From contig JAHBAT020000022.1 of NCBI GenBank assembly GCA_018499985.2, positions 1-32,287 of the forward strand: DNA of 32,287 nt, written 5' to 3'. Position numbers and translations under genes: made by a program. The notes below the pieces were generated by a model. That model did not search any database, had not been told where the DNA came from, and saw only the letters and a list, made by a program, of their open reading frames with translations. Shown here one piece after another: positions 6,332 to 9,378 of the stretch. This stretch comes from Candidatus Moraniibacteriota bacterium (GTDB lineage Bacteria > Patescibacteriota > Minisyncoccia > Moranbacterales > UBA1568). The number at the start of each line of letters is the position of its first letter. The first letter of the stretch is position 1.

Positions 6332-6609
6332 GGGTCGGTGGTAGAGCGGTCAATTACAACAGACTGTGAACATTGCAGCTCTAAGAAGGAATTCTTAGAT
6401 GAACTCTTGGGGATAACGGTGAAGGCTAAGTCCATAAAAAGATATGCTAATACCGTGGGAACTCGAGCATTAGGCTTGAGAGCGCCGTAGAGACTAGATA
6501 CCTGAGCACCGAGAACCGGTGAAGATATAGTCCATGCCGTATGGAAACATATGGAATTAATGAAATCTGTCGCCTTATGGCTTCGAAGGTTCGAATCCTT
6601 CCCGGCCCA
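6332..6609 (+). tRNA. tRNA-Tyr, anticodon GTA, interrupted by a group I intron
   Basis: Exons are 6332-6367 and 6563-6609 with CCA encoded at 6610-6612. Joined, they give acceptor GGGTCGG/CCGGCCC, D-arm GTAG...TTAC, anticodon stem ACAGA/TCTGT with loop CTGTAAA, a long class II variable arm (CGCC TTAT GGC), and T-arm GAAGG/CCTTC. The long variable arm and the strong similarity to bacterial tRNA-Tyr (CAGACTGTAAATCTG core) fix the identity as Tyr with anticodon GTA. Without splicing the loop would misread as GTG (His), so the intron boundary decides the isotype. The insertion is between the second and third anticodon bases (after U35). Confidence 0.9.
6368..6562 (+). ncRNA. Group I self-splicing intron in tRNA-Tyr (195 nt, no ORF)
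   Basis: The 5' exon end CTGT (6364-6367) pairs with the internal guide GCAG (6375-6378), giving P1 with the required U-G wobble at the splice site. P2 is CTAAGAA/TTCTTAG (6381-6397). P4 can form from ACGGT (6416-6420) and a downstream ACCGT. P7 pairs GACTA (6492-6496) with TAGTC (6528-6532) inside the conserved AAGATATAGTCC S-element. P8 is CACCG/CGGTG (6507-6521). The intron ends in G at 6562, the expected terminal guanosine. It is near the minimal size for a group I intron and encodes no protein. Confidence 0.88.
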
Positions 6610-6615
6610 CCAATA

Positions 6616-6655: not shown

Positions 6656-6940
6656 ATGGGAGGATAGGGAGAAAGCCAACTGCTTGGCTTTCGTAAGGAT
6701 GAGAACGCCGGAGTGATGCCGAGCGAGCACGTGAGGCCACGAGGCGGTGCCCAGCCCGAGGAAGTGTGACGACACGACGAGAGGCGAGGGCGAATCCTTC
6801 CCGGCCCAGTCTGCGGAAGCACTATTGAACGTAGGCCGTAGGCCTAGTATTCGAACCTTCCTGGCTTATTGATAGCTTTTATAGGGATGAGAAGTTTATG
6901 CTCGGAAGCAAAGCTTCCGGGTAAATCCTTCCCGGCCCAT
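6656..6940 (+). repeat. Hairpin-rich element with three extra copies of the tRNA-Tyr 3' end
   Basis: This gene-free stretch repeats the last part of tRNA-Tyr (ATCCTTCCCGGCCCA): intact copies at 6791-6808 and 6923-6939 and a diverged copy at 6849-6868. Each is preceded by GC-rich hairpins, for example AGCCAA/TTGGCT near 6675, TAGGCC/GGCCTA at 6832-6846 and CGGAAGC/GCTTCCG at 6903-6919. Bases 6813-6833 match 19 of 21 positions of a segment in the element behind tRNA-Glu (9268-9288). None of the copies is a complete tRNA. No protein frame here looks real. I know no named class for it. Confidence 0.75.
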
Positions 6941-9049: not shown

Positions 9050-9121
9050 GTCGCCATCGTCTATCGGCTAGGACATCAGGTTCTCATCCTGGAAAGCGGG
9101 GTTCGATTCCCCGTGGCGATA
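9050..9121 (+). tRNA. tRNA-Glu, anticodon CTC
   Basis: A 72-nt cloverleaf. Acceptor GTCGCCA/TGGCGAT, D-arm with TCGTCTATCGGCTAGGACA, anticodon stem CAGG/CCTG with loop TTCTCAT (anticodon CTC), and T-arm CGGGG/CCCCG. It lies 14 nt after tRNA-Trp and is probably cotranscribed with it. Its 3' end is duplicated downstream. Confidence 0.93.
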
Positions 9122-9129
9122 CAAGTAAT

Positions 9130-9166
9130 AAAAAGTCCCTTACTGAAAAGTTAGGGACTTTTTATT
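9130..9166 (+). terminator. Intrinsic terminator after tRNA-Glu
   Basis: AAAAAGTCCCT (9130-9140) pairs with AGGGACTTTTT (9153-9163). Confidence 0.88.
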
Positions 9167-9167
9167 G

Positions 9168-9335
9168 TGTGCCCCACGAGGAATCGAACATGAAGGGGGT
9201 CGGGGAAACATTTGTTTCCCCGTTTGGGGTGACCCAGTCCGCCAGCTGGCGGATCTGGGACTAGAGGGCGGAAGCCCTATAGAACGTATTTGCCGCTAGG
9301 CAAAACGTAGGTTGTTCGATCCCCGTGGCGATACA
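9168..9335 (+). repeat. Structured element bounded by inverted tRNA-Glu 3'-end sequences
   Basis: The left edge (9168-9190) is close to the reverse complement of a tRNA 3' end (GAGGAATCGAACA), and the right edge (9313-9335) is a direct tRNA-Glu tail (TTCGATCCCCGTGGCGATA). The two edges form imperfect terminal inverted repeats of about 22 nt. Between them stand four hairpins: GGGGAAAC/GTTTCCCC, CCGCC/GGCGG, GGGC/GCCC and TTGCC/GGCAA. The segment 9268-9288 recurs in the element behind tRNA-Tyr (6813-6833, 19 of 21 identical). No protein frame is supported. It could be a MITE-like unit, an integration scar or a structured RNA. Confidence 0.72.
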
Positions 9336-9339
9336 AGTA

Positions 9340-9378
9340 ATGAAAAGTCCCTTACTGAAAAGTGAGGAACTTTTTATT
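9340..9378 (+). terminator. Diverged duplicate of the tRNA-Glu terminator
   Basis: GAAAAGTCCCT and AGGAACTTTTTA copy the terminator at 9130-9166 with stem mismatches. It belongs to a roughly 70-nt direct repeat (9098-9167 and 9310-9380) that also covers the tRNA T-arm and acceptor. Confidence 0.7.

Follow-up and report, generated by a model that had tools for sequence, protein, structure and literature searches.

A gene-free element with arms fitted to its host gene at the ends of tRNA genes in Patescibacteria

How does a transfer RNA (tRNA) gene come to be followed by a second copy of its own end, and what is the structured stretch that separates the two? The question was raised by a unit of 168 nucleotides (nt) lying behind the tRNA-Glu gene in contig JAHBAT020000022.1 of a Candidatus Moraniibacteriota bacterium (assembly GCA_018499985.2, home genome G000), whose positions 1 to 32,287, 32,287 nt in all, are here called the window. 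In the unit (9168-9335), four hairpins are flanked on the left by the T-arm in inverted form and on the right by a further copy of the tRNA tail. The original prediction had described it as a hairpin unit bounded by tRNA-tail-like sequence and without protein, an observation that was confirmed, and the unit belongs to a large family; its suggestion of a minimal mobile or structured-RNA element using a tRNA end was supported by the copies, matching tails, compensatory changes and empty sites reported below. No open reading frame of at least 60 amino acids was found inside the 168 nt. The body of tRNA-Glu (U) ends at about 9105, in the T-loop, and is followed by the first tail (D1, about 9106 to 9122). 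The features of the locus are the following:

9050-9122, + strand: host tRNA-Glu(ctc) (ARAGORN, Rfam)
9130-9166, + strand: first terminator-like hairpin behind tRNA-Glu (sequence reading; palindrome)
9171-9189, + strand: left (guide) arm, reverse complement of the local T-loop and tail (sequence; family-wide statistics)
9190-9313, + strand: conserved core (comparison with related copies)
9201-9222, + strand: core hairpin H1 (fold; covariation)
9233-9259, + strand: second core hairpin, variable, type A (fold)
9261-9282, + strand: third core hairpin, CTAGAGGGCGGAAGCCCTATAG, conserved in type A (fold; pattern search)
9284-9308, + strand: fourth core hairpin (fold)
9314-9334, + strand: right arm, the second tRNA tail (D2), its last base matching the mature tRNA 3' end (sequence; family-wide statistics)
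about 9344-9378, + strand: second copy of the terminator-like hairpin, nearly identical to the first (sequence)

The layout is thus U, D1, a spacer or terminator, a guide arm able to pair across the junction of U and D1, a hairpin core, and D2 running into native downstream DNA. The left edge (9171-9189, GCCCCACGAGGAATCGAAC) reads as the tRNA-Glu tail in imperfect reverse complement, and the right edge repeats that tail, as had been predicted, with one T of the T-loop missing. Two pairing options are open to the left arm, either the tRNA itself, in an 89-nt palindrome through the terminator, or the second tail. The terminator hairpin of 9130-9166 is duplicated after D2.

Folding of the + strand gave -83.1 kcal/mol compared with -58.1 ± 3.9 kcal/mol for dinucleotide shuffles (z -6.4; 0/200), and the - strand gave z -8.4, so that the unit did not behave as shuffled sequence of the same composition, the outcome by which the prediction could have failed. 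The compensatory base changes that it had anticipated were found in the core helices: H1 formed 178 Watson-Crick pairs vs. 145 ± 4 when the 3' arms were redealt among copies, and H2 formed 171 vs. 122.6 ± 4.8, counts to be read with the caveat that both helices were chosen for complementarity. Mismatches in H1 and H2 comprised 12 G.T and 3 A.C, too weak a hint to use. Several unpaired core bases around AAGGGGTCGGG were nearly invariant.

Related units were present in relatives: when related genomes were searched at the DNA level, the core turned up behind other tRNAs, its edges corresponding to the tRNA in question, as had also been foreseen. The pattern of the third hairpin (CTAGAGGGCGGAAGCCCTATAG) occurred in seven Moranbacteria contigs. 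A covariance model of 50 positions, covering the 5' half of the unit, was run against 131 genomes of the order and matched 59, spread over 31 of 66 genera; in a phylum-wide sample of 380 genomes it matched 42, from 41 of 314 genera. A single genome carried up to 10 copies. We read 156 copies, the strong-scoring ones having been fetched first, so that the sample is not random. A tRNA on the same strand ended less than 200 nt upstream in 123 of them, 19 isotypes being represented, with a median distance of 58 nt from the tRNA end to the end of the left arm; one further copy sat behind the transfer-messenger RNA (tmRNA). Without exception, the 123 tRNA copies and the one behind tmRNA were oriented along the gene strand. 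Among the other copies, the right edge of L188, L208, and L213 abuts the 5' end of a tRNA and not a tail copy, and L106 (1645-1694, - strand), L112, L114, L119, L124, L198, and L229 have no recognisable upstream tRNA, being preceded by a terminator and a stretch like a degraded tRNA tail.

How well the arms fit the local gene was scored at the 122 tRNA loci that could be used, the left arm being counted from T-loop position 57 onwards. Compared with its own tRNA in reverse complement, the left arm agreed at 827 of 1220 positions (593 ± 12, maximum 634, when tRNAs were redealt), and the right arm agreed with its own tRNA at 1536 of 1708 (764 ± 20, maximum 844). At the 100 loci where a second tail was clear, identity between D1 and D2 was 0.93-1.0 up to the last base of the tRNA and 0.65 and 0.42 at the next two bases. 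D2 has kept its match to the local gene precisely as far as its functional end, though the bases beyond have diverged. Where D1 and D2 differed at positions 61-66, the left arm sided with D1 10 times and with D2 never, and it also matched the gene body at T-loop positions 53-58. The terminal inverted repeat of the original prediction consequently held only in part: the left edge is an inverted tail, but what the left arm tracks is the tRNA upstream in its intact form, U with D1, and not the second tail, so that it looks like a target-recognition arm rather than simply a terminal repeat. Joined in silico, U plus D2 was called a tRNA by ARAGORN in 101/101 loci and in 34/101 when D2 was swapped for that of another isotype; the upstream gene was complete without splicing in 101/101 loci. 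From the matching of D2 to its functional end we infer that U joined to D2 is in use. Something should then join the gene body to the second end, be it RNA splicing or DNA excision, and the second end appears to have been kept functional.

Empty sites were found in relatives. The unit stands behind tRNA-Arg(cct) in G063 and G103, whereas in G089 and G106, which share all 73 bases of this tRNA with G063, none is present and the next gene follows immediately. Beyond the second tail, the DNA corresponded to the flank of the empty site, with 77-81% identity over about 735-754 nt between genomes of the same genus. Such precise empty sites indicated that the unit is an insertion. The terminator was duplicated together with the tail both in the window and in L051, which indicated that the duplication is local and has once extended beyond the tRNA. 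In a separate case (L104, G173:C9), the tRNA tail and the element are directly duplicated in tandem behind tRNA-Glu. Core identity had a median of 0.64 between different tRNAs of the same genome, as compared to 0.50 for the same tRNA and 0.48 for different tRNAs in different genera, and the nearest core copy lay behind the same tRNA in only 9/122 cases. Cores thus group by genome, suggesting that they either travel between tRNAs or become homogenised, the arms being fitted to the target; a model of tRNA-specific lineages was ruled out on the same grounds. The distribution and the empty sites point to a mobile element. We consider this description of the family, comprising its anatomy, its fit to the target, and its insertion, to be very probably correct.

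The explanation that we favour, with a probability of roughly 0.4, is that the unit is a guest comparable to an intron, its guide arm enabling the gene body to be joined to either copy of the end, joining at the RNA level being preferred. A protein-free guest of about 120-250 bp would lie inside the end of the host gene, U being the tRNA to about T-loop position 57; the guide arm would pair with U|D1 and then with D2, in the manner of a group I internal guide sequence, the RNA would be cut, and U would be rejoined to D2. Readthrough into D1 and joining to D2 would yield the same tRNA, which would render the guest harmless, and spread to other tRNAs would be possible because the T-loop is nearly identical in all of them. 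Four observations were counted for RNA joining: the position of all tRNA copies on the tRNA strand; the arm geometry, equal to that of a group I guide, which pairs with the 5' exon, the intron's first bases, and the 3' exon; the way in which the copies in protein genes are oriented; and the lack of a resident recombinase in G000. The explanation is also backed by the fit of both arms to the local tRNA, the preservation of D2 to the last tRNA base, the siding of the left arm with D1, as a guide that pairs across U|D1 should do, the tRNA calls for U plus D2, the covariation of core helices, and the precise empty sites.

The copies in protein genes, which are rare and whose hosts were named by sequence reading without family search, include some at gene ends that duplicate that end. 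On the same strand, rpsI of G016 has CAG TGG TCG AAG CGT TAA as first end and CAG TGG AGC AAG CGC TAG as second, both reading QWSKR-stop; rpsI of G004 has CGT TAG vs. CGG TAA; and a gene of G063 has GCG AAA TTC TAA vs. GCT AAG TTT TAG, both AKF-stop. Over rpsI in the two genomes and the G063 gene, 9/9 codon differences between the ends were synonymous.

Several results weigh against RNA joining. Copies in lepA, dnaX, and fusA are antisense, at the gene start, and could not be served by it; they show three synonymous and one nonsynonymous difference in 15 codons (lepA), two synonymous differences in 10 codons (dnaX), and decay with loss of the start (fusA). The same-strand copy in the glycyl-tRNA synthetase gene (G379) has a partly decayed D2. 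Taken together, these small numbers suggest that same-strand second ends can diverge strongly and yet keep their meaning, while antisense ones are little diverged or decayed. The guide pairing showed no bias towards G.U wobble pairs, and among changes of D2 at positions paired in the tRNA, pairing was kept in 12/36 vs. 7.7 expected, which was not significant. Although the + strand folded better in 59/66 copies, this is accounted for by its richness in G, and against shuffled sequence it is the - strand that has the lower z, so that no strand preference of folding was found once composition was controlled. The smallest cores (about 40 nt in family 4, described below) are too short for a known self-splicing ribozyme, and any ribozyme reading has difficulty accommodating families with such cores, unless one factor shared by all the families is at work.

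The antisense copies are what would be expected of strand-agnostic insertion, as in the close rival, which we hold to be a real but tentative possibility: a non-autonomous DNA integrative cassette, folded as a single strand or circular, inserted at the T-loop by a trans-acting recombinase that a plasmid, a virus, or a lost element would provide, and likened to integron integrase acting on attC hairpins or to a tRNA-targeting integrase and its att sites. The insert would bring or duplicate the gene end, so that the gene survives, and D2 would be the former native end. The continuation of D2 into the empty-site flank fits this well, as do the tandem arrays of units behind one tRNA, the differing interiors with a common arm layout, as in attC sites, the ability of the left and right arms to pair together as a closing stem, and the lower fold z-score of the - strand. 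The core lineages, however, are not target-specific (9/122), which makes a recoded gene end borne by the element hard to explain, and the match of the left arm to the gene body (53-58) would be needless for a cassette site. No copies were found in viral, phage or plasmid collections. Nor does G000 (98.6% complete) contain a tyrosine recombinase: searches for four families of mobility enzymes (PF00589, PF01797, PF00078, and PF01548) gave no match there, and tyrosine recombinases (PF00589) were found only once each in G003, G007, and G010. The Y1 transposase (PF01797; IS200/IS605 or REP-type) was absent from G000 and from several other carriers. RtcB ligase was present in G000 and was not found in G063 and G081, which carry 6 and 8 copies, so that it does not discriminate. 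Lacking any PF00589 match, G000 has no Xer, unlike 122/131 genomes of the order, which may reflect an assembly gap.

An improbable reading is that of a regulatory RNA kept by the host, an attenuator or a control of processing, in which the left arm disturbs the T-arm of the tRNA and the second tail is a releasing decoy. It agrees with the complementarity of the left arm to both tails and with a core conserved with covariation; yet conservation of the second tail takes in the acceptor strand and the 3' end, well past the match to the left arm, presence is patchy between sister species with identical tRNA, and copies occur at the ends and starts of protein genes.

The guest with a guide arm was also compared with known systems. 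Like group I introns, it has a guide on the 5' side that is complementary to both joined exons at the junction spanning the insertion point, is inserted in tRNA genes, is followed by a 3' exon continuing the gene, and has a precise empty site. Group I introns, unlike the element, match Rfam: scans of the element at gathering and permissive thresholds gave no family and no match to RF00028 at either, whereas a true group I intron nearby scored 56 bits. The core is also only about 40-130 nt, the insertion lies in the T-loop, and, while hosts of group I introns need splicing, the host of the element works unspliced, an extra complete gene end standing between body and guide. Integron cassettes (attC) have in common an imperfect hairpin with paired arms, a variable interior, tandem arrays, and no enzyme of their own; the arms of the element, in contrast, appear to match the tRNA rather than integron core sites, no cassette gene is present, and the home genome is without the tyrosine recombinase. 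Read by eye, the T-loop GTTCGAT and its inverse come within one mismatch of the attC core sites GTTRRRY and RYYYAAC, and the right arm mostly has GTGAGAT. IS110/IS1111 insertion sequences with bridge or seek RNA likewise have a structured RNA-like core and an adjacent target-matching stretch, but the element has no protein, G000 has no IS110 match, and the duplication of the gene end is long.

Duplication of the tail behind tRNAs is a classic integrase scar. Integrative elements that target tRNA genes by a tyrosine integrase share the T-loop crossover and the duplicated tail ending at the tRNA 3' end, and both the tail duplication and empty sites in relatives were found here. The element differs in being gene-free and about 200 bp long, in its target-specific inverted arm, and in cores common to many tRNAs; with no open reading frame inside the unit and no PF00589 in G000, no integrase was found in or beside it. 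That the units are remnants of such islands, or decayed tandem tRNA genes, with tail repeats left after island loss, is very improbable: the scar-like duplication and the degeneracy of some copies and arrays speak for it, but debris would not keep a core conserved with covariation across the phylum, which already contradicts this reading, and the left arms are adapted to each tRNA over 19 isotypes and tmRNA, in units that lack the 5' half of a tRNA. In outline the element resembles a mobile intron or a tRNA-targeted integrative element and fails a defining test of each. The literature gave no description of such an element, as judged from an incomplete coverage with most subscription papers outside it; the arrangement matches no described mobile element or RNA kind that we found.

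A bolder proposal, which we think doubtful, would make it a new class of guide-bearing, self-tolerated mobile RNA, having a compact ribozyme-like core, inserting at the near-universal T-loop of tRNAs, tmRNA, and occasional protein genes, providing two interchangeable ends, and leaving transcripts by a guide-directed joining unlike that of group I, group II or protein-dependent tRNA splicing. Were the guest reading true, many patescibacterial genomes would host an undescribed kind of guest DNA or RNA, which enters essential tRNA genes without breaking them and meets a near-identical target in every tRNA. This is relevant to the way in which very reduced genomes cope with insertions into essential genes, and could point to a small guide-directed activity that joins RNA or inserts DNA.

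The same arm layout recurred with other cores (families 2, 3, and 4). Family 2 (GGGCGYGAGTAGAA...TTCTGTGTGTAGCGCCC) was found in L013 and L054 (G006), in L021, and downstream of L039; it occurs at tRNA-Glu in sister species and once in tandem behind a type A element. The core of family 3 (ACGAAGTTGAAGACACAAAGTACGCC...GTGACC) starts right behind the tRNA and ends in a tail copy (L020, L036 at tRNA-Glu, and L009), and is also present in the window at about 6660-6808. Family 4, with its core of about 40 nt (GAAGTTTATGCTCG...CGGGTA), stands behind tRNA-Ala, tRNA-Gln(ctg), and tRNA-Tyr in the home genome; a unit of this family (GATGAGAAGTTTATGCTCG...CGGGTA), whose arms and tail copy are of the same kind, was seen in L125 (tRNA-Ala, two in tandem) and L144 (tRNA-Gln). 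When a tail copy was defined as 15 nt with at most 2 mismatches, 6/34 tRNAs of the home genome had one within 900 nt downstream and none upstream, and tails of other tRNAs gave 27/1076. Two further features of the window belong here:

6332-6612, + strand: tRNA-Tyr(gta) interrupted by a group I intron (intron 6357-6554, Rfam 56 bits)
6660-6939, + strand: tandem array of three short units behind tRNA-Tyr (sequence reading)

The intron-bearing tRNA-Tyr was missed by default tRNA finding. Each unit of the array behind it ends in a tail copy, at 6793-6808, about 6854-6868 (degenerate), and 6924-6939, respectively.
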